Shown: one piece after another, positions 1,098 to 29,234 of the stretch
Layout: every line of letters begins with the position of its first letter
Numbering within the stretch: position 1 is the stretch's first letter
DNA from: Halomonas sp.
GTDB taxonomy: Bacteria > Pseudomonadota > Gammaproteobacteria > Pseudomonadales > Halomonadaceae
Assembly (NCBI GenBank): GCA_003552795.1
Contig: PUOM01000142.1
Span: 1 to 35,528, forward strand
DNA: 35,528 nt
Direction of reading: 5' to 3'
Position numbers and translations under genes: made by a program
The notes under the pieces: model-generated
Database searches by the model: none
What the model was told of the DNA's origin: nothing
Seen by the model: the letters and a program-made list of their open reading frames with translations, nothing else

Positions 1098-1430
1098 ATG
1101 CAATATTCCAACCTGATGGACGAGATCGAAGAGCTCAACCTGACCTATCTCCTGCTGGCGCAGCGCATGCTGGACGCCGATCGCGTGTCCGCCATGTTTC
1201 GCCTCAAGATCGATGAAGAGATGGCGGATCTGCTGCTGTCATTGAGCTCCAGGCAGCTGGCGCGGCTGTCTCGCACCAATCAGCTGCTCTGCCATTTTGG
1301 CCACCAGGGCGCCGAACGGCTGCGCCAGGTGGTCGATAACCCGCGTGACCAGGGGCTGGGCTGTTTCCATGCCTCGCTGCTGATGGCCTCCCACTCTGGA
1401 GCTGCCGTGGCTGGCGGCGAGGGGGGCTGA
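1098..1430 (+). CDS. flhD: Flagellar master regulator subunit FlhD
   Basis: This is a 110-residue protein; E. coli FlhD has about 116. The N-terminal stretch LNLTYLLLAQRML...RVSAMFRL.IDEEMADLL matches the E. coli family signature (INLSYLLLAQRLI, SAMFRLGINEEMA), and TNQLLCHF matches the central TNQLVCHF. FlhD forms the FlhD4C2 activator with FlhC, which recruits sigma-70 RNA polymerase to class 2 flagellar promoters. FlhC supplies most DNA contacts. The start ATG is preceded by AGGGA with short spacing; a second in-frame ATG lies 18 nt downstream. flhC follows after 0-3 nt, so the two are co-translated. The C-terminal ~20 residues diverge from enteric FlhD. Confidence 0.95.
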   Translation: MQYSNLMDEIEELNLTYLLLAQRMLDADRVSAMFRLKIDEEMADLLLSLSSRQLARLSRTNQLLCHFGHQGAERLRQVVDNPRDQGLGCFHASLLMASHSGAAVAGGEGG

Positions 1431-1433
1431 GTG

Positions 1434-1997
1434 ATGACCCGGAACAGTCTGGTTGATGAAATGCAGCAGGTGCAGCTGGCCATCGAGCTCATCGAGCTGG
1501 GTGCCCGCCTGCAGGTGCTGGAAACCGAGACCGAGATCAGCCGCGCCAAGCTGATCCGCCTCTACAAGGAGGTGCGCGGCATGTCTCCCCCCAAGGGCAT
1601 GCTGCCGTTCTCGGCCGACTGGTTCATTACCTGGCTGCCCAATATTCACTCCTCCCTGTTCTATAACATCTACCTGCGTCTGCGCCGAGGCCAGGGCTGC
1701 GAGCGAATGGAGGCCTTTGTCGGGGCCTTCCGGCTCTACCAGGATCAGGTGCGCCTGGATGGGGCCGAGACGGTGCTCGGGCTGACTCGCGCCTGGACCC
1801 TGCTGCGCTTCTTCGAGAGCGATCTGCTGCAGCTCTCCGAGTGCACGCGCTGCGGCGGCCACTTCGTGGCTCACGCCCACAGTCCGACCCACGACTATGT
1901 CTGCGGCATCTGTCAGCCCCCCTCCCGGGCCGGCAAGTCGCGCAAGCGCCAGCGCGCGGTCGCGACCCCGGCGGCCGCGGTGCAGTGCGTTTCCTGA
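1434..1997 (+). CDS. flhC: Flagellar master regulator subunit FlhC
   Basis: The DNA-binding partner of FlhD, 187 residues (E. coli 192). It has the zinc-site signature CTRCGG..FVAHAH..........YVCGICQPPSRA, with four cysteines at about residues 137, 140, 157 and 160, virtually identical to enteric FlhC. The basic tail after the zinc site (SRKRQR) is also typical. The ATG at 1434 follows the flhD stop directly and sits downstream of a GAGGGGGG ribosome site; an in-frame GTG immediately before it (1431) is an alternative start. Together with flhD it forms the class 1 operon that should control the flhB operon and fliA in this cluster. Confidence 0.96.
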   Translation: MTRNSLVDEMQQVQLAIELIELGARLQVLETETEISRAKLIRLYKEVRGMSPPKGMLPFSADWFITWLPNIHSSLFYNIYLRLRRGQGCERMEAFVGAFRLYQDQVRLDGAETVLGLTRAWTLLRFFESDLLQLSECTRCGGHFVAHAHSPTHDYVCGICQPPSRAGKSRKRQRAVATPAAAVQCVS

Positions 1998-2076: not shown

Positions 2077-2166
2077 CAGCTCTGAATGCTTTCGGCTGTC
2101 GTGACTTGCCCTGTCCAGCGGCAGCGGAGCGCGAGATACGCCGACAACGGGTTAAGGAAGCGGACT

Positions 2167-3039
2167 GTGCTGATAGCGATCGGGTATGTTGTCGTCATTC
2201 TCTGCGTGTTTGGCGGCTTTGTGATGGCGGGGGGGAGCCTGGGGCCCATCTACCAGCCTCTCGAGATCCTGATGATCGGCGGGGCGGGAGTGGGCGCCTT
2301 TCTCGCGGCCAACAATGGCAAGGCGATCAAGGCGACCTTCAGCGTGTTCTCTCGCCTCAGGCGTGCCAATCGCTACGACAAGGCCTTCTACATGGAGCTG
2401 ATGGGCCTGCAGTACAAGTTGCTCTCCAAGATTCGCCGCGAGGGCATGCTGGGTATCGAACGCGACATCGACAATCCCGATGAGAGCCCGCTGTTCAACG
2501 AGTATCCCCAGCTGCTCGACGATCCGATGATCATGAACTTCCTGACCGACTATCTGCGCATCATGGTGAGCGGCAGCCTGGAGCCCATGGAGCTCGATGA
2601 GCTGATGCTCCATGAGATAGAGGCCTTCGAGAGCGAGGCGCATATCCCGGCGGACGCCATCGCCAAGGTGGGCGATGCGATGCCGGCGTTCGGGATCGTG
2701 GCGGCGGTGCTGGGGGTGGTCAAGGCGCTGACCTATGCCGATGCGGGGCCGGATGAGATGGGCCAGATGATCGCCCACGCCCTGGTCGGCACCTTTCTCG
2801 GCATTCTGCTGGGCTACGGCTTCATCAATCCGGTGGCCAGCCGCATCGAGCGTCAGGCCAAGGAGGCCGAGAAGATGCTGCAGTGCATGCGGGTGACCCT
2901 GCTGGCCAGCCTGCACGGCTATGCCCCGCAGATGGCCGTGGAGTTCGGGCGCAAGGCCTTGCACACCGCCGAGCGTCCCTCCTTCACCGAGCTGGAAGAG
3001 CATGTGCGCGGCACGCGCCCGGGACCTGCCGGCGCATGA
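2167..3039 (+). CDS. motA: Flagellar motor stator protein MotA
   Basis: The torque-generating ion-channel subunit of the inner membrane, partner of MotB. The 290-residue product (E. coli 295) has the N-terminal IAIGYVVVILCVFGGFVMAGGSLGPIYQP, and the conserved VGDAMPAFGIVAAVLGVV and ALVGTFLGILLGYGFI membrane segments that contain the key prolines. The C-terminus YAPQMAVEFGRKALHTAERPSFTELEEHVR is strongly enteric-like. The GTG at 2167 is chosen because it is preceded by AAGGAAG (2154-2160) at 6 nt and aligns with the E. coli start. The open frame extends to an ATG at 2086, but that would add 27 unrelated residues lying just past the FliA promoter. It overlaps motB by an ATGA. Confidence 0.95.
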   Translation: MLIAIGYVVVILCVFGGFVMAGGSLGPIYQPLEILMIGGAGVGAFLAANNGKAIKATFSVFSRLRRANRYDKAFYMELMGLQYKLLSKIRREGMLGIERDIDNPDESPLFNEYPQLLDDPMIMNFLTDYLRIMVSGSLEPMELDELMLHEIEAFESEAHIPADAIAKVGDAMPAFGIVAAVLGVVKALTYADAGPDEMGQMIAHALVGTFLGILLGYGFINPVASRIERQAKEAEKMLQCMRVTLLASLHGYAPQMAVEFGRKALHTAERPSFTELEEHVRGTRPGPAGA

Positions 3040-16872: not shown

Positions 16873-18030
16873 ATGGCCGAACAGAGCAGCGATCAGGAAA
16901 AGACCGAACCGGCGACGCCACGACGCCTCGAGAAGGCCCGCGAAGAGGGCCAGGTCGCCCGTTCCCGGGAGTTGACCACCTTCCTGCTGCTGCTGGGCGG
17001 TGTGGTCGGCCTGTGGAGCATGGGGTCGGTGCTCTATGACCAGCTGGGGATAGTGATGGAGAAGGCGTTTCTCTTCGAGCGGCGCCAAGCCCTGGAGACC
17101 ACGCCCATGCTGACCATGGCCCTGGAGCTGGGTCGGCGTACGCTGCTGGCCATGCTGCCCCTCTTCCTGCTGCTGGTGCTGGTCGCCCTGGTGGCGCCCG
17201 CTCTGCTGGGCGGGTGGCTGATCTCGGCCAAGTCGCTCAAGCCCCAGGCCTCCAAGCTCAACCCGCTGAAGGGGCTCAAGCGCATGTTCGGGGTTCAGGC
17301 GCTGGTGGAGCTGGCCAAGGCGATCGCCAAGTCGGTGCTGGTGGGCGGCGTGGCGATCACCTTTCTCTGGACCAACCGCGGCACCTACATGAGCCTCATG
17401 GATCAGCCGGTGCAGCTCGCCCTTGCCAATGCCCTGCAGCTCGCCGCTCTGGCCTGCGGCCTGATCGTGCTGGCGCTGCTGGTCGTGATCCTTATCGACG
17501 TTCCCTACCAGCTGTGGAGCCATGCCAAGAAGATGCGCATGAGCAAGGAGGAGGTCAAGCGTGAACACAAGGAGTCCGATGGTGACCCCCATATCAAGGC
17601 GCGCATCCGCCAGCAGCAGCAGGCCATGGCGCGCGGCCGAATGATGAGCAAGGTGCCCGAGGCCGACGTCATCATCACCAACCCGACGCACTACGCCATT
17701 GCGCTGCGCTACGACGACGCGGGCATGTCGGCGCCGCGGGTGATCGCCAAGGGCACGGATCTGGTCGCCGAGCGGATCCGCGAGCTTGGCGATGAGCATG
17801 AGGTGCCGCGCCTGGAGGCGCCGCCGCTGGCGAGGGCGCTCTACCACCATGTGGATCTCGACGCCGAGATCCCCGAGGCCCTCTACACCGCCGTGGCCGA
17901 GGTCATGGCCTGGGCCTTCCAGCTGCGCACCGCGTCCCGCGACGGCGGCGAGGCGCCGCCAGTGCCCGAGGGGCTGCCCATTCCCGAGCCGTTCGAGGTT
18001 CCTCCCGGCGCTGAAGGAGCCGCGACATGA
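16873..18030 (+). CDS. flhB: Flagellar export gate protein FlhB
   Basis: Component of the flagellar type III export gate and the substrate-specificity switch. The 385-residue product (E. coli 382) begins with the typical KTEPATPRRLEKAREEGQVARSRELT and has four membrane segments (about 28-210). The cytoplasmic domain contains the self-cleaving NPTH (residues 270-273, in IITNPTHYAIALRY), followed by SAPRVIAKGTDLVAERIRELG and PLARALYHHVDLDAEIPEALYTAVAEVMAW. A GTG two codons upstream (16867) is an alternative start. It overlaps flhA by ATGA. It is the full-length paralogue of the stand-alone domain at 429-722. Confidence 0.96.
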   Translation: MAEQSSDQEKTEPATPRRLEKAREEGQVARSRELTTFLLLLGGVVGLWSMGSVLYDQLGIVMEKAFLFERRQALETTPMLTMALELGRRTLLAMLPLFLLLVLVALVAPALLGGWLISAKSLKPQASKLNPLKGLKRMFGVQALVELAKAIAKSVLVGGVAITFLWTNRGTYMSLMDQPVQLALANALQLAALACGLIVLALLVVILIDVPYQLWSHAKKMRMSKEEVKREHKESDGDPHIKARIRQQQQAMARGRMMSKVPEADVIITNPTHYAIALRYDDAGMSAPRVIAKGTDLVAERIRELGDEHEVPRLEAPPLARALYHHVDLDAEIPEALYTAVAEVMAWAFQLRTASRDGGEAPPVPEGLPIPEPFEVPPGAEGAAT

Positions 18031-20114
18031 AGGCTCTGAGCCAGTACCTGGGCGGGCAGTGGCTGGGCAGTTCCCAGATGAAGCTGCTGGCCGGCCCGCT
18101 GCTGATCCTCTTCGTGATGGCGATGCTGATCCTGCCGCTGCCGCCCATCGCCCTGGATCTCTTCTTCACCTTCAATATCGCCCTGGCGGTGATGGTGCTG
18201 CTGGTCAGCATGTTCACCCAGAAGCCGCTGGACTTCGCGGCCTTCCCGGCGGTGCTGCTGTTCACCACCCTGCTGCGGCTGTCGCTGAACGTTGCCTCCA
18301 CGCGGGTGATCCTGATGGAGGGGCATCAGGGCGGCGATTCCGCGGGCAAGGTGATCGAGGCCTTCGGCCAGTTTCTGGTCGGGGGCAACTTTGCCGTGGG
18401 CCTGGTGGTGTTCCTGATCCTGATCGTCATCAACTTCATGGTCATCACCAAGGGCGCCGGGCGCATCGCCGAGGTGGGCGCGCGCTTCATGCTGGATGCC
18501 ATGCCGGGCAAGCAGATGGCGATCGATGCCGATCTCAATGCGGGCCTGATCGGCGAGGAGGACGCCCGCAAGCGCCGCGCCGAGGTGGCCCAGGAGGCCG
18601 ACTTCTACGGCTCCATGGACGGTGCCAGCAAGTTCGTGCGCGGCGATGCCATGGCCGGCCTGGTGATCATGGTGGTCAACATCATCGGTGGCCTCCTGAT
18701 CGGCATGTTGCAGCACGGCATGGGCTTCGGCGATGCCGCGCGCACCTACACCCTGATGACCATCGGTGACGGCCTGGTGGCGCAGATTCCCGCGCTGGTG
18801 ATCTCAACCGCGGCGGGGGTGACGGTATCCCGGGTCAACACGGATAACGGCGAGGATGTCGGCCAGCAGATGATCAGCCAGCTCTTCACCAATCCCCAGG
18901 TGATGATCCTGGCGGCAGCGGTGATGGGCCTGCTGGGCATGGTGCCGGGGATGCCCAACTTCGTCTTCCTGCTGTTCACGGTGCTGCTCGGTTCGCTGGC
19001 CTGGTACATGATTCGCCGCACGAACCTGCTGAAGGTCGAGGAGGCGATGGCCGTCGCCGAGGCGCCACCGGCGCCGGACACCCCCGAGGCCAGCTGGGAC
19101 GATGTGCAGCTGGTGGACACCCTGGGGCTGGAGGTGGGCCACCGGCTGATTGCGCTGGTTGACCAGCGCCAGGAGGGCGAGCTGCTGGGCCGGATCAAGG
19201 GGGTGCGCAAGAAGTTTGCTCAGGAGGTGGGGTTCCTGCCCCCTGTGGTGCATATCCGTGACAACCTGGAGCTGGGCCCCTCGACCTATGTGATCACCCT
19301 CAAGGGGGCCGAGATCGGCCGCGCCGAGGCGTTCCCCGGCAAGTGGCTGGCCATCGATCCGGGGCAGGTGACCGGTGAGCTGGACGGCACGGCGACCACC
19401 GACCCCGCCTTCGGGCTGCCGGCGGTCTGGATCGAGGCGGCTCAGCGCGAGCACGCTCAGGTCTACGGCTATACGGTGGTTGACGCCAGCACCGTGGTGG
19501 CTACTCACCTCAATCACCTGATGCACCACCATGCGGCCGAGATGCTGGGTCGGGGCGAGGTGCAGAAGCTGCTCGATCGCCTGGGCGACGACCAGAAGTC
19601 GCTGGTGGATGAGGTGGTGCCCAAGGTGGTCTCCCTCACGGTGTTCCAGCGGATTCTGCAGAACCTCCTCGAGGAGGAGGTCTCGATCCGCGACCTGCGC
19701 ACGATCCTGGATACCCTGGCGGAGCATGCCGGCCAGCAGGCCGATGCCGGCGAGCTTACCGCCCAGGTGCGTATCGGTCTGGGCCGCAGCATCGTTCAGC
19801 AGTGGTTCGGGGCGGAGACGGAGATCCGGGTGATCGGCCTGGAGGCGCAGCTGGAGCAGGTGCTGATGAAGGCCATGAGCGGCAACGGTGCCCTGGAGCC
19901 CGGCCTCGCCGACACCCTGATGACCCAGGCGGAACAGGCGCTGGCGCGGCAGGAGGCGGCCGGCGAGCCGCCGGTGCTGGTGGTCCAGCACAGCCTGCGT
20001 CCCGTGCTCTCGCGCTTCCTGCGCCGCCGCCTGCGCCATATGGCGGTGATCTCCCAGGCCGAGATTCCCGATGACCGAGCGCTGCGCGTCACGCAGCTGG
20101 TGGGTGGCCGATGA
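18027..20114 (+). CDS. flhA: Flagellar export gate protein FlhA
   Basis: Forms the nonameric ring of the export apparatus; the cytoplasmic domain docks chaperone-substrate complexes and the membrane part conducts protons. The 695-residue product (E. coli 692) has about eight N-terminal membrane helices (about 20-330) including the FHIPEP-family region with NVASTRVIL, FVRGDAMAGLVIMVVNIIGGLL and MLQHGM. The cytoplasmic domain (about 350-695) includes PVVHIRDNLEL. AAGGAG precedes the ATG, which overlaps the flhB stop. The stop codon lies within ATGA, where a 14-codon mini-ORF begins. Confidence 0.97.
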   Translation: MKALSQYLGGQWLGSSQMKLLAGPLLILFVMAMLILPLPPIALDLFFTFNIALAVMVLLVSMFTQKPLDFAAFPAVLLFTTLLRLSLNVASTRVILMEGHQGGDSAGKVIEAFGQFLVGGNFAVGLVVFLILIVINFMVITKGAGRIAEVGARFMLDAMPGKQMAIDADLNAGLIGEEDARKRRAEVAQEADFYGSMDGASKFVRGDAMAGLVIMVVNIIGGLLIGMLQHGMGFGDAARTYTLMTIGDGLVAQIPALVISTAAGVTVSRVNTDNGEDVGQQMISQLFTNPQVMILAAAVMGLLGMVPGMPNFVFLLFTVLLGSLAWYMIRRTNLLKVEEAMAVAEAPPAPDTPEASWDDVQLVDTLGLEVGHRLIALVDQRQEGELLGRIKGVRKKFAQEVGFLPPVVHIRDNLELGPSTYVITLKGAEIGRAEAFPGKWLAIDPGQVTGELDGTATTDPAFGLPAVWIEAAQREHAQVYGYTVVDASTVVATHLNHLMHHHAAEMLGRGEVQKLLDRLGDDQKSLVDEVVPKVVSLTVFQRILQNLLEEEVSIRDLRTILDTLAEHAGQQADAGELTAQVRIGLGRSIVQQWFGAETEIRVIGLEAQLEQVLMKAMSGNGALEPGLADTLMTQAEQALARQEAAGEPPVLVVQHSLRPVLSRFLRRRLRHMAVISQAEIPDDRALRVTQLVGGR

Positions 20115-20155
20115 GTAGCGGGAGGCCGATGAGCAAAGGGTGGCTGACAGTATGA
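20111..20155 (+). CDS. Possible 14-codon coupling mini-ORF between flhA and flhF
   Basis: An ATG at 20111 overlaps the flhA stop (ATGA) and opens MSSGRPMSKGWLTV, whose TGA (20153-20155) overlaps the ATG of flhF at 20152, again as ATGA. A ribosome finishing flhA could therefore pass through this peptide to flhF. The segment also holds a 10-bp direct repeat (GGCCGATGAG at 20106-20115 and 20124-20133). No homologue is known to me, and chance cannot be excluded for so short a frame. Confidence 0.3.
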   Translation: MSSGRPMSKGWLTV

Positions 20156-22440
20156 GCGTAATGCGATTCACAGGAGTCAACAGTCGCGAGGCGATGCGCC
20201 AGGTGCGCGCTGCCCTCGGCGATGACGCCCTGATCCTGGCCAATCGGCGCACCGATCAGGGCATCGAGATCCTGGCCATGGCCGAGCCGGGGGCCGAGCC
20301 GGCGACGCCGGTACCCCCGGCGCGCCGCTCCGCGACCCCCGACGCTCCAGAGCGCCCGTCCACACCGCGTCGCCCCTCCGAGCGTCGCTCATCTGTGCCG
20401 CTCTCTTCCGGGCCTCCAGCCGCGGCGCCCAGTCCTGCGGCGCCCAGTCCTGCGGCGCCAGCGCCCGATCGGCCGCGGCGCCGGCCGGCCGACGCGCCGG
20501 CCGCGATCTCGGGTCCGGAGGCGGCGGGGCCCCATGACGCCTTCGAGGCGATGAGCGCCCGCCTGCTGCAGGAGATGCAGGAGATGCGCGATCTGCTGGC
20601 CGCACGGGCGCCCGCGACCGCGACGCCACCGCAGCGTGAGCGCCTGATCCGCTGGCTCGAGGAAGCGGGCTTCTCGCGGACCGTGGTCGACGAGGCGCTG
20701 TCGGCGCTGCCCGTCGACCTCGAGCAGGGCGCCGAAGCCGCCTGGCTGATCGCCCGGCTGGCCGCACGTCTGCCGGTGCAGGAAGATGAGCTGGCGCTGC
20801 TCGACCGTGGCGGCATCGTGGCGCTGGTGGGGCCCACCGGCGTCGGCAAGACCACCACGGCGGCCAAGCTGGCGGCGCGCTTCGTGATGCGCCACGGGCC
20901 CGAGCCGGTGGCGCTGGTGTCGACGGATGGCTTTCGCGTCGGCGCCCATGAGCAGCTGCGCATCTATGCGGAGCTGCTGGGCATTCCCATGCACGGCCTC
21001 GAGCTCGAGCAGTCTCTGGAGAGCCTGCTCCCTTCGCTGGCCGGGAAGCGCTTCGTGATCATCGACACCGTGGGCATGAGTCAGCGCGACCGCCGAATCA
21101 TCGATCAGATCGCCAGGCTTCAGGGGGGCGCGCCGGTACGCCCGGTGCTGCTGCTGAATGCGGCCAGTCAGCCGGAGACCCTGGAAGAGGTGGTCGTCAA
21201 TTACCGCCAGGCGGTGCAGGCGGCGGGGCTGGCGCTCGAGGACTGCGTGATCAGCAAGCAGGATGAGGCCGGCCGCCTGGGCCCGCTGCTGGATGCCCTG
21301 ATGCGCCACGGGCTGCGCCTGCTGTTCGTGGCCCACGGGCAGCGGGTGCCCGAGGATCTGGCCGTGGGCGATCCCGCGGCGCTGGTCGAGCAGGCGCTGG
21401 CGGTGCGCAGCCGGGCGCCGCGCTCGGAACCTCCGGCGGGGGCCGCGCTGCTGCTGGGTCGGGGGCGGCGTCTGGCCGCTCTGCTGGTGACCCTGCGCGA
21501 GCGCGTGCCGGGCTTCGAGGAGCTGGAGCGTGCCTGGGCGCTGGCCGGGGTGCCGCCCAGCCTCCAGCCGCAGCGTCTCGAGGCGCTGATGGAGCAGGCG
21601 CTGCCGCCGTCGGCGGGGCGTATCTGGATGTCCCGGGCGCGGGTCCGCGGTGAGGCCTGGTCGCAGCCCGATCTCTGCCTCGATCACGACGGGCAGTGGT
21701 CGGCGCTGCCGAGGCTGCAGCACCTGGCGCCGCCGGGGGAGGTCGAACGCCTGGCCTGGGCGGAGTCCACGACGCCGCTTGGCGCCCATCTGATGGTCGG
21801 ACTGCCCGGTGACGATAGCCGACGCTGGCTGGCAGAGCAGGGGCGCGACTGGGTCGCGCTGGTGCGCGGGGGGCTGCGCGTGGAGGCGGCGGGGGAGCGA
21901 CGATCGATTACCGAGCTGAAGCCGGCGATGGCCCAGCGCCAGCCGCGGAGCCTGCGCTGGCGCAGCCGTGACGCTCAGCTGCGGCTCGCCGCCTGTGCGG
22001 TGACCCTGGGGGGTGGCGAGCCGCTGCGGGCCTGGGCGGGCGAGCTGGTGGATGCCTTCAGCGGCAAGGTGCTGAAGCGGGCCTGGTGGCTGGCGCCGGA
22101 TACGCTGCGCGGACGTGCCGTTCCGCTGCTGTTGGCGCAGCTGTCGGCCGACGCTCTGCCCCTGCTGACGCGACGCGCCATTCGCCGCCTTGCCGAGGCC
22201 GACGCCGACATGTCGCCGTCGCTGCGTCTGACCCTGGGGGCGGGCCTGGCGGCGGTGGCCGTGCAGCTGGAGACGAGTGATGAGGCCTGGGCGCCGGCGC
22301 TGCGCGGCGAGCTGCTGGGGCTGCTGGCGGGCAAGCGGCGCAGCAGCGCCGAGACGCTGCTGGACGCCCTGCTGCACCTGGGGTTGGCACGTGAAGCGCT
22401 GAGGGAACTTGGCACGGTCGGGCAGGAGGGACTGCACTGA
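20152..22440 (+). CDS. flhF: FlhF-type SRP-family GTPase with long unrecognised C-terminal extension
   Basis: FlhF directs flagellar placement and number. The N-terminal B domain begins MRFTGVNSREAMRQVRAALGDDALILANRR, typical of FlhF. A Pro/Ala-rich linker follows (about 45-125), then the NG domain. P-loop GPTGVGKTTTAAKLAARF has Gly227-Lys233; STDGFRVGAHEQLRIYAELL, DTVG (305-308), SKQD (368-371, a variant of the usual TKLD) and FVAHGQRVPEDL are also present. FlhF proteins normally end soon after this point. Here about 340 more residues follow (about 420-762) that I do not recognise; they are rich in Leu, Arg and Trp and look globular. Starts at 20140 (GTG) or 20161 (ATG) are possible; 20152 is chosen for the ATGA overlap with the upstream mini-ORF. 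Confidence 0.9.
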   Translation: MSVMRFTGVNSREAMRQVRAALGDDALILANRRTDQGIEILAMAEPGAEPATPVPPARRSATPDAPERPSTPRRPSERRSSVPLSSGPPAAAPSPAAPSPAAPAPDRPRRRPADAPAAISGPEAAGPHDAFEAMSARLLQEMQEMRDLLAARAPATATPPQRERLIRWLEEAGFSRTVVDEALSALPVDLEQGAEAAWLIARLAARLPVQEDELALLDRGGIVALVGPTGVGKTTTAAKLAARFVMRHGPEPVALVSTDGFRVGAHEQLRIYAELLGIPMHGLELEQSLESLLPSLAGKRFVIIDTVGMSQRDRRIIDQIARLQGGAPVRPVLLLNAASQPETLEEVVVNYRQAVQAAGLALEDCVISKQDEAGRLGPLLDALMRHGLRLLFVAHGQRVPEDLAVGDPAALVEQALAVRSRAPRSEPPAGAALLLGRGRRLAALLVTLRERVPGFEELERAWALAGVPPSLQPQRLEALMEQALPPSAGRIWMSRARVRGEAWSQPDLCLDHDGQWSALPRLQHLAPPGEVERLAWAESTTPLGAHLMVGLPGDDSRRWLAEQGRDWVALVRGGLRVEAAGERRSITELKPAMAQRQPRSLRWRSRDAQLRLAACAVTLGGGEPLRAWAGELVDAFSGKVLKRAWWLAPDTLRGRAVPLLLAQLSADALPLLTRRAIRRLAEADADMSPSLRLTLGAGLAAVAVQLETSDEAWAPALRGELLGLLAGKRRSSAETLLDALLHLGLAREALRELGTVGQEGLH
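20422..20459 (+). repeat. Short tandem repeat in the FlhF linker
   Basis: About 2.5 copies of the 15-bp unit GCGGCGCCCAGTCCT encode an (A-A-P-S-P)-type stretch in the disordered linker between the B and NG domains of FlhF. The copies are exact, which suggests recent slippage; changes would keep the frame. Confidence 0.75.
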
Positions 22441-22441
22441 G

Positions 22442-23002
22442 ATGGCAATGGACCAGGCAGCGGGACTACGCGAGTGGGCCTCCCGGAGGGAGGCGGATGT
22501 GGGCAGCTGTCCGCAGCATGTGGTCGAGGCGCTGGTCGCCCTGGCGCGACAAGGAGGTCGGGCGCCACGGCCGGCATCCGTGCCGCCTTCCCCGGCCCTG
22601 GCGTCCGCGACTCAGGGGAGGTCGGGCGGCGAGCCCGTGCTGATGGTGCTCGGGCTGCCCGGCTGTCAGCTCGATCGGGTGAGAGAGCTGCTGACCCACT
22701 GGCATGATGGTGGGCGGCGCTGGGTCGGCAGGCCGGAGAGGTGGCGGCTGGTGCCGGTGTCGGTCGCGGATGCGCACCTGCCCTTGCTGGTGGAGCAGCA
22801 GTCGCACTGGGCGCTGTGGGTGGAGTCGGACGCCGAGGCGTTCCGGCGTGCCTGGCGGCTGCTGCTGACCCTGGCGGAGGGGCCCTGCCCGAGGCGGCTG
22901 CTGGTGGTGCATCCGCCGGGGATCACACGCCAGGGCCTGCTGGACAACCTGCGCCAGGCCGCCGCCCACTACTTCGGTATCGAGCTGGTGGTGCTGGCAT
23001 GA
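22442..23002 (+). CDS. FlhG-like protein without Walker A motif (candidate FlhF activator)
   Basis: A 186-residue protein in the position where flhG/fleN normally lies, between flhF and fliA. It begins MAMDQAAGLREW: DQAAGLR fits the N-terminal DQAxxLR motif with which FlhG/YlxH stimulates the FlhF GTPase. A Pro/Ser linker follows (about 40-65). The rest has a beta/alpha pattern; the final part, around ALWVES..AFRRAWRLLLTLAE...RRLLVVHPPGITRQGLLDNLRQAAAHYFGIELVVLA (in pieces), loosely resembles the end of the MinD-like domain of FlhG. There is no KGGxGKT P-loop, so it cannot be a normal ATPase, and it is well short of the ~270-300 residues of FlhG. It lies 1 nt after flhF and overlaps flhE by ATGA. 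A degenerate FlhG is my inference; an unrelated protein that captured the motif is the alternative. Confidence 0.6.
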   Translation: MAMDQAAGLREWASRREADVGSCPQHVVEALVALARQGGRAPRPASVPPSPALASATQGRSGGEPVLMVLGLPGCQLDRVRELLTHWHDGGRRWVGRPERWRLVPVSVADAHLPLLVEQQSHWALWVESDAEAFRRAWRLLLTLAEGPCPRRLLVVHPPGITRQGLLDNLRQAAAHYFGIELVVLA

Positions 23003-23382
23003 GCAGGCGCCTGCTGCTGCTGGCGTGGCTGCTTGCATCGCCCGCGCTGGGGGCGGGAAGCTGGGTCGGCCAGGCGGGGCCGGTAGGCGTCTTCATGGCC
23101 GATCGGCCCGCCGCGTCGTCGGACATGGCCCCGCCTGCCGCCGTCGGCGGCGGCGTCATCCGTGACGTGCGCTGGCGCTATAGCGTGCCGCCGGGCCAGG
23201 CAGTGGTGGGCTGGCTCTGCCATGCCGAGGGCTGCACCGAGCTTTCCGGCCCGAGGGGGCAGAGCCGCAGCCTGAGCGGGATGCCGGCCGGCACTCCGCT
23301 GCACTTTCGCTTTGCCCTCGCGCCGGGTCAGCGCACTGCGGCGCGCGTCAGCGAGCTTCAGGTTATCGTCAACTATCGGTAG
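22999..23382 (+). CDS. flhE: Flagellar periplasmic protein FlhE
   Basis: A 127-residue exported protein (E. coli FlhE 130). The N-terminus MSRRLLLLAWLLASPALGAG is a clear Sec signal peptide with cleavage likely after ALG-A. The mature part follows FlhE throughout: GSWVGQAGPVGVFMADR, VRWRYSVPP, two cysteines in WLCHAEGCTEL, SLSGMPAGTPLHFRF, and the C-terminus ELQVIVNYR, matching the enteric EVIVNYR ending. In enterics FlhE is made from flhBAE and has been linked to preventing proton leak through the export gate. Here it is separated from flhA by flhF and the flhG-like gene. The ATG overlaps the preceding stop. Confidence 0.88.
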   Translation: MSRRLLLLAWLLASPALGAGSWVGQAGPVGVFMADRPAASSDMAPPAAVGGGVIRDVRWRYSVPPGQAVVGWLCHAEGCTELSGPRGQSRSLSGMPAGTPLHFRFALAPGQRTAARVSELQVIVNYR

Positions 23383-23396
23383 GACAGGCGAACGGC

Positions 23397-24095
23397 ATGT
23401 ACACCGCCAAGGGAAAGATTGATCAGAATGAGCTGCTTGCCCAGTACCTGCCCCAGGTGAGGCGCCAGGCGCTGACGCTGCAGGTGCGGCTGCCCGCAAG
23501 CATCGAGCTGGATGATCTGATCCAGGCCGGCATGGTGGGGCTTCTGGAAGCCCTCGGCCGGTTCGATGCCGGGCAGGGCGCCAGCTTTGCCACCTTCGCC
23601 AGTCAGCGGATTCGCGGCGCCATGATCGATGAGCTGCGCAGCCGGGACTGGTTGCCGCGCAGCGTGCGTCGCAATGCTCGGGCCGTGGACGAGGCGATTC
23701 GCCGCCTCGAGCAGCGCCTGGGTCATCCCCCCGAGGAGCATGAGATCGCCGCCGAGCTGGAGATGGCGCTGGCGGACTACCGGCAGCTGCTCAACGATAC
23801 CAACAACGGCCAGCTGCTGCCGTTCGAGGAGCTGGTGGCGGAAGGGCAGGATCCGGGGCAGGCGGGCACGCCGTTCGGCACCCCCTTCGGCGATCTGGTG
23901 GATCAGCAGCAGCGGGGTCGACTGGTCACGGCGATCGAGGCGCTGCCCGAGCGGGAGAAACTGCTGATGGCGCTCTATTACCAGGAGGAGCTCAACCTCA
24001 AGGAGATCGGCGCAGTGCTGGGGGTCACGGAATCCCGGGTGAGTCAGCTGCACAGCCAGGCGGTGAGTCGCCTGCGCGCCTGGCTCCAGGACTAG
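23397..24095 (+). CDS. fliA: RNA polymerase sigma factor for flagellar operon, sigma-28 FliA
   Basis: A 232-residue sigma-28 factor (E. coli 239) that transcribes late flagellar, stator and chemotaxis genes. Region 2 shows LQVRLPASIELDDLIQAGMVGLLEAL and ATFASQRIRGAMIDELRSRDWLPRSVRRNAR. Region 4 shows LPEREKLLMALYYQEELNLKEIGAVLGVTESRVSQLHSQAVSRLR, nearly identical to E. coli. It lies 14 nt after flhE, so it is likely read with the flhB operon, i.e. class 2 under FlhDC. Its expected targets in this window are the three promoters at 2050, 12690 and 24104. The anti-sigma factor FlgM is not encoded here. Confidence 0.97.
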   Translation: MYTAKGKIDQNELLAQYLPQVRRQALTLQVRLPASIELDDLIQAGMVGLLEALGRFDAGQGASFATFASQRIRGAMIDELRSRDWLPRSVRRNARAVDEAIRRLEQRLGHPPEEHEIAAELEMALADYRQLLNDTNNGQLLPFEELVAEGQDPGQAGTPFGTPFGDLVDQQQRGRLVTAIEALPEREKLLMALYYQEELNLKEIGAVLGVTESRVSQLHSQAVSRLRAWLQD

Positions 24096-24130: not shown

Positions 24131-24173
24131 CGCCTATTGCTCTACTCTTCTCTTCCTTGGCATGGGGCCGCGC

Positions 24174-24989
24174 ATGAATCCCTCGACGCTCATCGGTATC
24201 TTTGCCAGCTGTGTGCTGCTGGCCAGCGTGCTTTTCTTCACGGCAGAGTCGCCTCAGAGCTTCATGAACCTGCCGGGTCTGGCCATCGTGCTGGCCGGTA
24301 CCATGGCGGCCACCTTCATCAGCTACCCGCTCAAGGAGGTGGTCAGGGTGGTCAGGCTGGTGGGGATCGTCTTCCGCCGCGAGAACACCTATATCCGGGA
24401 CGACATCAAGGAGCTGGTGGACATGTCCCGCCTCTGGTTCAAGGGGGATGTGAGGGCCGTCGAGCGGGCCCTGGAGGAGACCCGCAACCCCTTCCTGCGC
24501 ACCGGCATCCAGCTGGTGATTGCCAATACCAAGGAGCAGGAGATCTTCGACCTGCTGCGCTGGCGGATTGCCCGCCTCAAGGCCCGTGAACACGCCGAGG
24601 CGCAGATCTTTCGCACCATGGCGACCTATGCCCCGGCCTTCGGGATGATCGGCACCCTGGTGGGGCTGGTCAACATGCTGGAGGTGATGGATGCGGGCGA
24701 TCTGCATGTGATCGGCCCGCGCATGGCCGTGGCGCTGCTGACCACCTTCTACGGCATCCTGCTGGCCAACCTGGTCTTCAAGCCCATTGCGGTCAAGCTC
24801 GAGCGGCGCACCGAGGAGCGCCTGATCGCCATGAACATGGTGCTCGAGGGGATCTCCCTGATCACCAAGCGTCGCCTGCCGTCCTTCATCGAGGAGACGC
24901 TCAACTCCTTCGTGGCCAACTATCACGACGAGATCCGCGATCCGGTCAAGCCCCGCCCGCGGGGTGACGAGGCGCGTCAGAATGCTTGA
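24174..24989 (+). CDS. motC: Second flagellar stator channel protein, MotC/PomA type
   Basis: A 271-residue MotA-family protein of the shorter MotC/PomA branch. It has four membrane segments: LIGIFASCVLLASVLFF, LAIVLAGTMAATFISYPL, then after a cytoplasmic loop YAPAFGMIGTLVGLVNMLE and MAVALLTTFYGILLANLVFKPIAVKL. The loop has the acidic/basic pattern that contacts FliG (RDDIKELVDMSRLWFKGDV). It is distinct from motA at 2167. The ATG at 24174 has GGGG at 6 nt and gives a PomA-like N-terminus (MNPSTLIGI); ATG 24162 is an alternative adding four residues. It overlaps motD by 8 nt. Ion specificity (sodium or proton) cannot be settled from what I can see. Confidence 0.9.
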   Translation: MNPSTLIGIFASCVLLASVLFFTAESPQSFMNLPGLAIVLAGTMAATFISYPLKEVVRVVRLVGIVFRRENTYIRDDIKELVDMSRLWFKGDVRAVERALEETRNPFLRTGIQLVIANTKEQEIFDLLRWRIARLKAREHAEAQIFRTMATYAPAFGMIGTLVGLVNMLEVMDAGDLHVIGPRMAVALLTTFYGILLANLVFKPIAVKLERRTEERLIAMNMVLEGISLITKRRLPSFIEETLNSFVANYHDEIRDPVKPRPRGDEARQNA

Positions 24990-25677
24990 TCGCAACGTTC
25001 GCGAGATGCTCTCGCCGGTCAGCAGCGGCGAGAGCGACGGCGAGTCCTGGCTGGTCAGCTATCTCGACGTGCTGACGCTGCTGATCACGCTCTTCGTGCT
25101 GCTGCTCTCACTGGCGGGAAACGGCCTGGCCGTGTCCGGCAGCCAGCACGGCGGCGAGTCCAGCCGCCATATCACCACGCCGGCGCAGCTCTCCGCGAAC
25201 GCGGTGGGGGGCGGTCCGGGGCCGCTCTCGGTGGGCCTCAAACCGCGCCATGACGGCCTTCAGCCGCGCTTTCAGGGGCTCGAGATCGACGGCGTCAGCG
25301 TGGACGAGGGCGCCCAGGGGGTGACGCTGCGCATCGATGACAACCTGCTGTTCACCAGCGGCCAGGCCGAGCTGATCGCCGGCGGCGAGGCGGTACTGGC
25401 CCGGCTGGTCGAGCTGATCGAGAGCTTCGACGGTGACGTCTCGGTGGAGGGGCACACCGACAGCATTCCCATCGCCACGGCGCGCTTCCCCTCCAACTGG
25501 GAGCTCTCCACCGCGCGGGCGATCTCGGTGCTGCGCTACCTGGCCGATGAGGGGATCGACCAGGAGCGGTTGCGCGCCGTTGGCTATGCCGATACCCGCC
25601 CGATGGAGAGCAATCGGGACGCCGAAGGCCGCGCGGCCAATCGGCGCGTGGAGCTGCTGCTGCACGAGTCGCGGTGA
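24982..25677 (+). CDS. motD: Second flagellar stator anchor protein, MotD/MotB family
   Basis: A 231-residue partner of the preceding channel protein. One membrane helix, SYLDVLTLLITLFVLLLSLAG, carries the ion-binding aspartate at residue 29. A Gly/Ser-rich linker leads to an OmpA-like peptidoglycan-binding domain (about 105-230) with VEGHTDSIPIATARFPSNWELSTARAISVLRYL and NRRVELLLHE. The ATG at 24982 overlaps the end of motC; a GTG at 24964 is also in frame. GAGG lies 9 nt upstream. The protein is shorter than MotB (290). Its end converges on mfd, with a GC hairpin between. Confidence 0.9.
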   Translation: MLDRNVREMLSPVSSGESDGESWLVSYLDVLTLLITLFVLLLSLAGNGLAVSGSQHGGESSRHITTPAQLSANAVGGGPGPLSVGLKPRHDGLQPRFQGLEIDGVSVDEGAQGVTLRIDDNLLFTSGQAELIAGGEAVLARLVELIESFDGDVSVEGHTDSIPIATARFPSNWELSTARAISVLRYLADEGIDQERLRAVGYADTRPMESNRDAEGRAANRRVELLLHESR

Positions 25678-25710: not shown

Positions 25711-28700
25711 CTATGCCGCCTCGGCCTTGCGGTTGAGGGTCTCGAGCAGCTGCTCCACGGCCCGGAAGCGGGCCTCCTCGTTCTCCATGCGCGCCTCGAA
25801 GCGCAGGGTGTCGGCCCCGTCGAGCCGGTAGCGGTCGGGTTCGCGCTGAATCAGCCCCACCAGGATCAGCGGGTCGACCCGGGTGTGGCCGCCGAAGATC
25901 ACGCGGCCACGCTCGGGGCCCGCCTCCAGCCGGGTGATGCCCAGCGCCTCGGCGCGCTGGCGCAGCTTGGTCTGGCGCAGCAGGGTCTTGACCGGCCCCG
26001 GCAGCAGGCCGAAGCGGTCGATCATCTCCACCTGCAGCTCCTTGAGGGCCGCCTCGTCGGCGGCACTGGCGATGCGCTTGTACATCACCAGGCGCTGCTG
26101 GACATCGGGCAGGTAGTCGTTCGGGATCAGCGCCGGCAGGTTGAGGCTGACCTCGACGCCCTCGTCCAGCGGCGCCTCGATGTTGGGCGTCTTGCCGGCG
26201 CGGATCGCCGCCACGGCGCGGTCGAGCATCTGCATGTAGAGACCGTAGCCGATCGCCTCCATCTGCCCGCTCTGCTCCTCGCCGAGCAGCTCGCCGGCGC
26301 CGCGGATCTCCATGTCGTGGCTGGCCAGGGTGAAGCCGGCGCCCAGGGCCTCGGCCCCGGAGATGGCCTCCAGGCGCTTGATGGCGTCCTGGGTCATGGC
26401 CTTCGGCGGTGGCGTCAGCAGGTAGGCGTAGGCCTGGTGGTGGCTGCGCCCGACCCGGCCGCGCAGCTGGTGCAGCTGGGCCAGGCCGAACTTGTCGGCG
26501 CGTTCGATCAGGATGGTGTTGGCGCTGGGCACGTCGATGCCGGTCTCGATGATGGTGGAGCAGACCAGCACGTTGAAGCGCTTGTGGTAGAAGTCCGACA
26601 TGATCCGCTCCAGCGCTCGCTCGGGGAGCTGGCCGTGGGCGACGCCGACGCGCGCCTCGGGCACCAGTTCGCGCACCGTCTCGGCGCTGGTTTCGATGGT
26701 CTTGACCTCGTTGTGGAGGAAGTAGACCTGGCCGCCGCGCAGGATCTCGCGCAGGATCGCCTCCTTGATGACCGGCTCCTCGCGGCGCTGCACGAAGGTC
26801 TTCACCGACAGCCGTCGCGCCGGCGGCGTGGCGATGATGGAGAGGTCGCGGATGCCGCTCATCGCCATGTTGAGGGTGCGCGGGATCGGCGTGGCGGTCA
26901 TGGTCAGGATATCCACCTCGGCGCGCAGGCTCTTCAGGCGCTCCTTCTGGGCCACGCCGAAGCGATGCTCCTCGTCGATGATCAGCAGGCCCATCCTGGG
27001 CAGCTTCGTGGACTTCGAGAGCAGCTTGTGGGTGCCGATGACGATGTCCGCCTGGCCCTCCTCGATGCGCTTCATGGCGGCTGCCTGGCCCTTGCCGGCG
27101 GTGAAGCGCGAGACCAGCTCGATGTTCACCGCGGTATCCGCGAAGCGGTCGCGGAAGTTCTCGTAGTGCTGGCGGGCGAGCAGGGTGGTGGGCACCAGTA
27201 CCACCACCTGACGCCCGGAGTGCACCGCCAGGAAGGCGGCGCGCATGGCCACCTCGGTCTTGCCGAAGCCCACGTCGCCGCATACCACTCGGTCCATGGG
27301 GCGCGGGGCGGTCATGTCCTCGATCACCGCATGGATGGCGGCACGCTGATCCGGGGTCTCCTCGAAGGGGAAGCCGGCGGCGAAGCGGGCATACTCGGCG
27401 TCGGGGGCGGCGCAGGCGAAGCCAACCCGGGCCTCGCGGCGGGCGTAGATGTCGAGCAGCTCGGCGGCGGTGTCGCGGATCTTCTCGGCGGCCCGGCGGC
27501 GGGCCTTCTCCCACTGGTCCGAGCCCAGCCGGTGCAGGGGGGCAAGCTCGTCGTCGGCGCCGGCGTAGCGCGATATCAGATGCAGGCTCTCCACCGGGAC
27601 ATAGAGCCTGGCCCCATCGGCGTACTCCAGGGTGACGAACTCGGCGGCCTGGCCGCCGGCCTCCAGCGTCTCGAGGCCGGTATAGCGGCCCACGCCGTGG
27701 GTCTGATGGACCACCGGGGCGCCGGGGCGCAGCTCCGACAGGTGGCGGATGGCCAGCTCGTCGGCGTCGGTGGCCTTCTCCCGGCGCCGGGTCTGGCGCA
27801 CCACCTCGCCGTAGAGCTCCGACTCGCTGATCACGGCGAGGTCGGGGTCGGTGAGCCAGAGGCCGGCCTCGAGCTCCCCTTCGGTGATCGCCATGGCGCT
27901 GCCGGCCGAGAGGAAGTCGGCGAAATCTTCCACGTGGGGCAGGTCGAGGCGCAGCGGCGTCAGGACCTCCTCGAGCGCCTCGCGGCGGCCGCGCGACTCC
28001 GCCACGAACAGCACCCGGGCGTCGGCGTGGTCGGTGAGAAAGGTCGACAGAGCCGCCAGGGGGGCCTTGCCCCGCGCGTTGATGCCGACCTCGGGGGGCG
28101 TCTTGCTGGCGGGGGCCAGGGCGTGGCGATGCTCGCTCTCCTCGGTGAGTGCTACCCGGGGATGGCGCTTGATGGCCCCGAACACCTCGGACACCGGCAC
28201 GAAGGCGCGGTGGGGCGGCAGCAGCGGTCGCGAGGGGTCGACGCCCAGGTTCTCGAAGCGGCCCTCGATGGCCGCCCAGTGGTGTTCGGCGGCCTCGAAG
28301 ACGCGGGGCAGCTGGGCCACCCGGGTGCCCTCGGCGAGGTGCTCGAAGAGCGTCGCGGTCTGCTCGAAGAACAGCGGCAGGTACTGCTCCAGACCCGGGG
28401 AGGGGATGCCCTTGAGGGCGTCGACATAGAGCGGGCACTGGCGTGGATCGACGTCGAACAGGGTCTCGAAACCCTCGCGGAAGCAGGCGATGGCGCTGCG
28501 CGAGAGCGAGTATTCATGGGCCGGCAGCAGGTCGACGCGCTCGACCTTGTCCCGGCTGCGCTGGGTGTCCGGGTCGAAGTGGCGCAGGGTGTCGATCTCG
28601 TCATCGAACAGATCGATGCGCAGCGGCGCCTCCGTGCCCATGGGGAAGAGGTCGATGATGGCGCCGCGCAGGGCGTACTCGCCGGGCTCGTAAACGGTTT

Positions 28701-29160
28701 CCACCGCCCGGTAGCCGGCCCGGGAGAGCGCTTCCCGGAAGCGTTCGCGATCGAGGGTCTGCCCCACTTCGAGGGTGAGCACGCGGCCGGCGATGTACTC
28801 CACCGGCGGCAGCCGCTGCATCAGGGTATTGATGGGCACCAGCACGATGCCGTGCTCGCCGTCCTGCAGCCGGCGCAGGGTGCGCAGCCGCGCCGAGACG
28901 ATGTCCTGGTGGGGCGAGAAGCTGTCGTAGGGCAGGGTTTCCCAGTCGGGGAAGGGCAGCACCGGCACCCGGCTGTAGAAGGCCAGCTCGCTCTCCAGGC
29001 GCAGCGCCTGGGCGGTGTCGGCGGTGATCACCAGCAGCGGGGCATCTTCGGCCAGGCGCGCCAGGGCCAGGGCGGTAGCGCTTCCCTGGGGGGCCTGCCA
29101 GTAGAGGGTGTCGCGCACGCCTTCGGGGCGCGGTGGATCCAGCGGCGAGAAGTTGGGCAT
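25711..29160 (-). CDS. mfd: Transcription-repair coupling factor Mfd
   Basis: A 1149-residue DNA translocase (E. coli 1148) that displaces RNA polymerase stalled at lesions and recruits UvrA. The N-terminal UvrB-like region (1-350) includes YDSFSPHQDIVSARLRTL. The RNA-polymerase-interacting domain (about 470-550) has HGVGRYTGLETL. The translocase has Walker A GDVGFGKTEVAMRAAF with Lys634 (the same number as in E. coli), DEEHRFG (729-735), TATPIPRTLNMAMSGIRDLS and VLVCSTIIETGIDVPSANT, and the C-terminal TRCF domain (about 1000-1149) follows. Start ATG 29160 is chosen over GTG 29166 because the numbering then coincides with E. coli and neither has a good ribosome site. It is transcribed opposite to all other genes here. 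Confidence 0.97.
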   Translation of the reverse strand: MPNFSPLDPPRPEGVRDTLYWQAPQGSATALALARLAEDAPLLVITADTAQALRLESELAFYSRVPVLPFPDWETLPYDSFSPHQDIVSARLRTLRRLQDGEHGIVLVPINTLMQRLPPVEYIAGRVLTLEVGQTLDRERFREALSRAGYRAVETVYEPGEYALRGAIIDLFPMGTEAPLRIDLFDDEIDTLRHFDPDTQRSRDKVERVDLLPAHEYSLSRSAIACFREGFETLFDVDPRQCPLYVDALKGIPSPGLEQYLPLFFEQTATLFEHLAEGTRVAQLPRVFEAAEHHWAAIEGRFENLGVDPSRPLLPPHRAFVPVSEVFGAIKRHPRVALTEESEHRHALAPASKTPPEVGINARGKAPLAALSTFLTDHADARVLFVAESRGRREALEEVLTPLRLDLPHVEDFADFLSAGSAMAITEGELEAGLWLTDPDLAVISESELYGEVVRQTRRREKATDADELAIRHLSELRPGAPVVHQTHGVGRYTGLETLEAGGQAAEFVTLEYADGARLYVPVESLHLISRYAGADDELAPLHRLGSDQWEKARRRAAEKIRDTAAELLDIYARREARVGFACAAPDAEYARFAAGFPFEETPDQRAAIHAVIEDMTAPRPMDRVVCGDVGFGKTEVAMRAAFLAVHSGRQVVVLVPTTLLARQHYENFRDRFADTAVNIELVSRFTAGKGQAAAMKRIEEGQADIVIGTHKLLSKSTKLPRMGLLIIDEEHRFGVAQKERLKSLRAEVDILTMTATPIPRTLNMAMSGIRDLSIIATPPARRLSVKTFVQRREEPVIKEAILREILRGGQVYFLHNEVKTIETSAETVRELVPEARVGVAHGQLPERALERIMSDFYHKRFNVLVCSTIIETGIDVPSANTILIERADKFGLAQLHQLRGRVGRSHHQAYAYLLTPPPKAMTQDAIKRLEAISGAEALGAGFTLASHDMEIRGAGELLGEEQSGQMEAIGYGLYMQMLDRAVAAIRAGKTPNIEAPLDEGVEVSLNLPALIPNDYLPDVQQRLVMYKRIASAADEAALKELQVEMIDRFGLLPGPVKTLLRQTKLRQRAEALGITRLEAGPERGRVIFGGHTRVDPLILVGLIQREPDRYRLDGADTLRFEARMENEEARFRAVEQLLETLNRKAEAA

Positions 29161-29225
29161 GGTCACGTCGGTCGGCTGTCGACGGGGCAGGGCCCGCCAG
29201 TGTCCTGGATGGAGTGGATGGACGC

Positions 29226-29234
29226 ATGATACCA
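29226..29234 (-). promoter_or_regulatory. Probable extended -10 promoter for mfd
   Basis: On the minus strand TGGTATCAT forms an extended -10 element (TGn followed by TATCAT), without a convincing -35 box. Transcription would begin near 29219, about 60 nt upstream of the mfd start. Confidence 0.4.

Follow-up and report, generated by a model that had tools for sequence, protein, structure and literature searches.

FlhF and FlhG, found together in about 30% of bacterial genomes, form a coupled GTPase/ATPase switch according to a 2025 review (PMC12826062). In the canonical system described there, the glutamine of the FlhG motif DQAxxLR completes the active site of the FlhF homodimer and triggers GTP hydrolysis, turning the dimer into monomers, while FlhG shuttles by ATP-driven dimerization and a C-terminal membrane anchor. 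Enteric bacteria are described in the same source as lacking flhF and flhG altogether, and a text search of it gave neither Halomonas nor FlhDC. According to Leon and Espin (PMC2885672), the flagella of Azotobacter vinelandii are FlhDC-controlled and peritrichous, fleQ and fleN are unlinked to flagellar genes, and most flagellar genes are closest to those of Chromohalobacter and Cupriavidus. Among the matches listed in a search of open-licence papers, given as titles and the beginnings of abstracts, neither a P-loop-less FlhG nor a transposase-fold FlhF was described.

The DNA analyzed here, referred to as the window, is a stretch of 35,528 nucleotides from Halomonas sp., taken from an assembly of 2.87 Mb in 336 contigs that is 86.7% complete. 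Directly after flhF it encodes a 186-residue protein, here termed mini-FlhG, which by analogy with canonical FlhG is most likely an ATP-independent activator of the FlhF GTPase. The gene accompanies an FlhDC-type flagellar cluster with the following features:

1098 to 1430, plus strand: flhD, master regulator (PF05247, 107.5 bits)
1431 to 1997, plus strand: flhC, master regulator (PF05280, 275.1 bits)
18027 to 20114, plus strand: flhA (TIGR01398, 883.8 bits)
20140 to 22440, plus strand: flhF, 766 aa, the partner SRP-type GTPase (TIGR03499, 237.9 bits; PF00448, 95.1 bits; GTPase motifs kept in homologues)
21430 to 22437, plus strand: C-terminal extension of FlhF, predicted Tn5-transposase-like fold without a conserved acidic residue (AlphaFold2 model, VIA match to 1b7e, conservation)
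22442 to 23002, plus strand: mini-FlhG, putative P-loop-less FlhG remnant between flhF and flhE (homologue searches and alignment)
22451 to 22471, plus strand: DQAAGLR, FlhF enhancer-helix motif, residues 4 to 10 (six invariant positions among 50 sequences; modelled helix; motif role as given in PMC12826062)
22628 to 22999, plus strand: alpha/beta domain, residues 63 to 186, probable degenerate second half of a MinD-like fold (AlphaFold2 model, hhalign to FlhG, VIA match to FlhG 4rz2 tied with unrelated folds)
22999 to 23382, plus strand: flhE (PF06366, 66.7 bits)
23397 to 24095, plus strand: fliA, sigma 28 (sigma-70 regions 2, 3 and 4; gene order)

The window also holds motA, chemotaxis genes and flhB, and motA and motB follow fliA. 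Two separate motA-type genes are present (2086 to 3039 and 24162 to 25677, the second with motB), and a plus-strand frame of 1114 aa (25885 to 29229) lies antisense to mfd (25711 to 29166, minus strand). The gene flhE is also present in enterics such as E. coli and Salmonella.

The stop of flhF lies at 22440, and the mini-FlhG frame (N-terminus MAMDQAAGLREW) begins one base downstream; among homologues the flhF stop and the mini-FlhG start often overlap by 4 bases. Wherever a contig reached flhF, mini-FlhG was directly 3' of it, mostly before flhE, at the place that flhG occupies in other genera. No Pfam or NCBIfam model matched the window protein, and a Pfam scan of 50 members gave scattered matches in one to three members each, the best of them to a low-complexity family. 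No homologue was found in plasmid records. The protein belongs to a conserved family with a median length of 185 aa, and this conservation ruled out a chance or antisense frame as its explanation.

A sequence-only reading of this DNA had noted that a protein in the FlhG position starts with the FlhF-activator motif DQAxxLR and has no Walker A in its 186 residues, and both observations extended to the family. Among homologous frames detected by their C-terminal domain, at loci retrieved by similarity or by flhF and not by the motif, 91 of 92 carried DQAxxLR (82 of 83 genomes); recognition of the divergent g4 and g16 copies (both are genera) had initially relied in part on the motif. The single exception (G137, locus L184) has a broken frame with the motif in the adjacent frame, and its flhF is broken too. 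A further 80 of 80 loci with DQAxxLR had been retrieved by that motif and were therefore not counted as evidence. In the 50-sequence alignment, D4, Q5, A6, G8, L9 and R10 were invariant, and the linker was unconserved. The variants among 85 distinct sequences, a set gathered using the motif and hence describing variants only, were DQAAGLR (76), DQASGLR (6), DQAQGLR (2) and DQATGLR (1). A census of six-frame ORFs totalling 2,208,180 residues found the motif 206 times: 171 times in mini-FlhG ORFs, 25 times in canonical FlhG and 10 times elsewhere, one of these ten being the broken G137 copy. Walker A (GxxxxGK[ST]) occurred in none of 94 mini-FlhG sequences, and the deviant P-loop GKGGxGK[ST] was absent too.

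A search of 151 Halomonadaceae genomes, 147 of them with completeness of 90% or more and contamination of 5% or less, yielded 86 matches to mini-FlhG at E 0.01 or better. We took 79 as credible and left out seven weak ones (G007, G024, G095, G097, G107, G109 and G145). Six more genomes (G015, G095, G101, G109, G120 and G137), two of them among the seven left out, came from examining flhF loci, and by both routes mini-FlhG was present in 85 of 151 genomes, one a broken copy. Beyond the Halomonadaceae, it was found in f43, another family of the order (G228 and G326), where the FlhG query gave MinD-level matches only, and in some Pseudomonadaceae, including the flagellar cluster of A. vinelandii. 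At five loci of genera g4 and g16 (L178 to L180, L182 and L050), flhF and mini-FlhG form a pair, and no flhA, flhE or fliA was found in the stretch examined.

Because the source assembly is incomplete, its relatives carry the argument that no other FlhG is present. A gamma FlhG query, which in the class recovered FlhG from 56 of 114 genomes (E 1e-30 or better), reached a maximum of 77.6 bits in the 151 Halomonadaceae genomes (150 with a match, one without); the ten best loci were all MinD, and the others were judged by score. In eight single-contig genomes with mini-FlhG, CbiA gave 51 matches; 30 of these loci were examined, of which 24 were ParA, MinD or Mrp, none was FlhG, and six matched none of four queries. 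A full FlhG hidden elsewhere in Halomonadaceae was ruled out as far as tested, as nothing scored above MinD level in the 151 genomes. Matches to PF06490 (FleQ), which bear on loss of FleQ as an explanation, were marginal, at most 40.2 bits in a search that had no positive control genome.

Elsewhere in the order, canonical FlhG scored 303 to 552 bits in 26 of 29 flhF loci (L141 to L170 without L157), and it lay between flhF and fliA in five order loci that were followed further. Three loci of family f27 (L159, L160 and L163) have an flhF of normal size, and no FlhG ORF was called within a flank of about 1.5 kb. DQAxxLR preceded the P-loop in 25 of 35 canonical FlhGs (the 30 best loci of the class search and five others), and the canonical FlhG of the nearest relatives in the order lacks the motif. 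Three Pseudomonadaceae, namely A. vinelandii, Stutzerimonas stutzeri K1 and Pseudomonas linyingensis, carry both mini-FlhG and a canonical FlhG; neither flhF nor fliA lies within 1.5 kb of the latter. The search for a separate full-length flhG, proposed alongside the first observation of the protein, therefore came out empty for the 151 Halomonadaceae genomes but not for these three Pseudomonadaceae.

Profile comparison connected the C-terminal part of mini-FlhG to FlhG. Using hhalign, the family aligned with the beta FlhG of four Burkholderiaceae at a score of 37.4 (P 7.4e-5, 84 columns), with gamma FlhG at 29.7 (P 1.6e-3), and with both combined at 39.9 (P 4.1e-5, 86 columns, probability 70%). 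Among the controls, MinD reached 24.6 over a similar stretch, reversed FlhG 18.2 and CheY 11.6, and none of ten other families exceeded 17.3; the maximum of 100 column shuffles was 20.8, and none of the 100 reached the gamma FlhG score. An earlier, smaller comparison had given P values of 0.024 for FlhG, 0.47 for MinD and 0.45 for ParA. The match spans the last approximately 85 residues of mini-FlhG and the second half of FlhG, which bore out the original impression that the C-terminal third of the protein loosely follows a MinD-like domain. An hmmsearch of the PDB with the family profile found no FlhG. Motif, position and profile taken together, FlhG ancestry is the best reading, with the C-terminal domain as a probable remnant of the second half of FlhG.

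An AlphaFold2 model of mini-FlhG from 50 sequences (mean pLDDT 82.8, pTM 0.66) placed the motif in a helix of residues 5 to 19 at a moderate pLDDT of 67 to 69, followed by another helix, a linker of low confidence and a five-strand alpha/beta domain at residues 63 to 186, whose ten-residue blocks reached pLDDT 85 to 96. In the model the last strand covers residues 181 to 184 and the protein ends two residues later, and the window protein has no C-terminal membrane-targeting sequence. In VIA, the best matches were FlhG structures (4rz2, Z 7.9, and 4rz3, Z 7.6; 120 aligned residues, rmsd 3.4 to 3.5). CheY-like or receiver domains came close behind at 7.3, 7.2 and 7.1, within 1 of FlhG, and Foldseek ranked unrelated Rossmann folds above FlhG: a plant reductase came first (E 5.7e-4), a ParA-family ATPase seventh and FlhG 4rz3 fourteenth (E 3.1e-3). 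By itself the fold search on this model leaves FlhG and receiver-like proteins undecided. These fold matches would suit a domain that is an unrelated alpha/beta module, for instance receiver-like, which replaced the MinD domain behind the enhancer helix and would still trigger FlhF in response to another signal. We regard such a replacement as quite unlikely, as the profile scores for FlhG far exceeded that for CheY and full-length FlhGs without a P-loop occur in Burkholderiaceae.

Among the 151 Halomonadaceae genomes, flhF was above the cut-off in 123, comprising 108 with a long frame (719 to 874 aa, open frames) and 15 with a short one (424 to 477 aa). All 108 long-flhF genomes carry flhC, as compared with one of the 15 short ones (at 56 bits). 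Where the alignment covered the FlhF P-loop, its GKT was kept in every sequence (144 of 144, with 28 uncovered). The short FlhF of four genera, inspected in five genomes (L171 to L175; g3, g5, g22 and g24), is gamma-type by tree and directly followed by fliA; neither FlhG nor mini-FlhG was found at these loci, and no match to FlhG exceeded MinD level in these genomes.

Of the 108 long-FlhF genomes, 84 showed mini-FlhG, two proved on inspection to be without it, and the other 22 lay outside the inspection. It was seen in none of the 15 with short FlhF, which gave no credible match and included the five inspected loci. Such pairing with the extended FlhF would also be expected if the motif had been kept for binding FlhF and not for stimulating its GTPase, with mini-FlhG serving as a stabilizer or chaperone of long FlhF. 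This explanation appears unlikely, as the catalytic glutamine itself is invariant and binding alone need not demand that.

Two inspected genomes of genus g8 (L181 and L183) keep a long FlhF and have no room for mini-FlhG between flhF and flhE. The same is true of G192 (L185), whose FlhF is very divergent, and mini-FlhG is therefore dispensable in these genomes. Moreover, flhC occurs without flhF above the cut-off in 13 of 151 genomes, not counting G137 with its broken flhF. The missing g8 copies and these 13 genomes raise the idea that mini-FlhG is a functionless relic decaying toward loss, as in enteric bacteria. We consider that very unlikely for a protein whose motif and domain are strongly conserved across Halomonadaceae and also in Pseudomonadaceae, and whose reading frame is unbroken in 82 of the 83 genomes.

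The residues of FlhF beyond the NG domain number 324 to 407 (median 358) at mini-FlhG loci compared with a median of 23 at canonical loci, a set in which the window locus L157 was wrongly counted and accounts for the maximum of 341. This extension is common to long FlhF in both Halomonadaceae and the Azotobacter-type Pseudomonadaceae. In the window it comprises 336 aa, predicted at pLDDT 94.6. VIA matched it to the Tn5 transposase 1b7e at Z 15.0 (283 aligned residues, rmsd 4.6) and to five more Tn5 entries at Z 12.0 to 12.8, with the next unrelated structure at 6.7, and the same entries were the top six in Foldseek (E 5.9e-7 to 3.6e-6). Sequence comparison was fainter: hhalign against the Tn5 family gave 23.4 (26.8 with Cupriavidus added), compared with 27.2 for the best of 60 shuffles and at most 20.7 for FlhG and ten flagellar and ATPase families. 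No transposase family was matched in Pfam by 50 members, and no Tn5 was found when the extension profile was searched against solved structures in the PDB. No aspartate or glutamate reached 90% conservation among 50 sequences, and the DDE triad is therefore not kept. We consider it quite likely that the extension is a domesticated transposase fold. The Cupriavidus extension is homologous (P 1e-6, 327 columns), and Burkholderia glumae has only 28 residues there.

The full-length FlhG (approximately 270 aa) of three Cupriavidus and of B. glumae (WP_012734297.1) contains DQAExLR, and both P-loop lysines are replaced in all four (L327, 7092 to 7904; L328; L330; L331, 5369 to 6181). On sequence grounds, these proteins, including the B. 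glumae protein annotated as FlhG, are apparently pseudo-ATPases. The Cupriavidus locus also has a long FlhF and flhE, and the window FlhA matches that of Cupriavidus better (64%) than those of gamma relatives (46 to 54%). In an unrooted FlhF tree, X-type and beta FlhF fell on one side and gamma FlhF on the other (branch support 100/99); the tree does not place an origin of X-type within beta FlhF. Mini-FlhG probably entered together with an FlhDC flagellar cluster of betaproteobacterial type or was reduced within it.

The dead P-loop in the four Burkholderiaceae FlhGs of full length suggests a stepwise decay from ATPase to pseudo-ATPase to mini-FlhG to nothing. In the presumed order, its stages would be FlhF with an ATPase FlhG; FlhF with a full-length dead FlhG, as in Burkholderiaceae; FlhF with mini-FlhG, as in Halomonadaceae and some Pseudomonadaceae; FlhF alone, as in the two inspected g8 genomes and G192; and flhC without flhF, as in the 13 of 151 genomes and, with its broken flhF, G137, resembling enterics.

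The explanation that we consider likely overall is that mini-FlhG is a reduced FlhG in an FlhDC-type cluster that kept the enhancer helix and triggers GTP hydrolysis by FlhF independently of ATP. It draws on the motif, the loss of the P-loop, FlhG ancestry, the finding of no other FlhG in Halomonadaceae and the kept GTPase motifs of FlhF. Mini-FlhG would have retained the N-terminal helix with its co-catalytic glutamine but given up the P-loop and, in the case of the window protein, the membrane anchor too; what is left behind a variable linker would be an alpha/beta remnant of about 125 aa. The helix would bind the GTP-loaded FlhF homodimer, and the invariant glutamine would complete the active site; GTP would be hydrolyzed and the dimer would fall apart, as with canonical FlhG. 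As mini-FlhG should neither bind ATP nor shuttle to the membrane, no ATP cycle would govern its activity, which would depend instead on dose, through the direct coupling of its gene to flhF, and on partners that bind the remnant domain. Of the canonical FlhG functions only the triggering of FlhF would be retained, now independent of ATP.

By losing the ATP engine while keeping the helix that triggers FlhF, Halomonas-type bacteria probably place their flagella with an ATP-free version of the known switch. Mini-FlhG may in this way control flagellar number or placement. A. vinelandii and Chromohalobacter (PMC2885672) suggest a link to non-polar flagella, and the system may yield lateral or peritrichous ones. 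More tentatively, the switch in Halomonadaceae, Azotobacter and relatives could have been rewired further: an FlhF GTPase joined to a transposase-fold domain that has been domesticated and is catalytically dead would be switched off by ATP-free mini-FlhG; that domain, perhaps by contacting the nucleoid or the membrane, would supply the spatial information in place of the FlhG ATP cycle, with the P-loop-less FlhG of Burkholderiaceae as a half-way state. We see this as possible but doubtful. A lineage-wide natural split of the activator helix from the ATPase would allow a direct test of what the ATPase contributes, be it number, position, transcription control or nothing, and these genomes may hold intermediates for how peritrichous FlhDC systems lost the need for FlhG and, in enterics, for FlhF.

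Among known systems, BcsE, a regulator of cellulose secretion, resembles mini-FlhG in having a degenerate NTPase-type domain, and we know of no link between BcsE and FlhF. The enteric FlhDC system of E. coli and Salmonella has the flhDC master genes in common with the window and differs in its lack of flhF and flhG. The Burkholderiaceae FlhG is alike in its DQAxxLR motif and in the loss of the P-loop lysines, and was the best profile match for mini-FlhG, but is still full length. FlhG, also known as FleN or YlxH, is the MinD-type ATPase partner of FlhF. Mini-FlhG is like it in its place after flhF, its N-terminal DQAxxLR and a recognizable C-terminal half of the domain, and differs from it in having no P-loop, a shorter chain, an unconserved linker and, in the window protein, no membrane-targeting tail.
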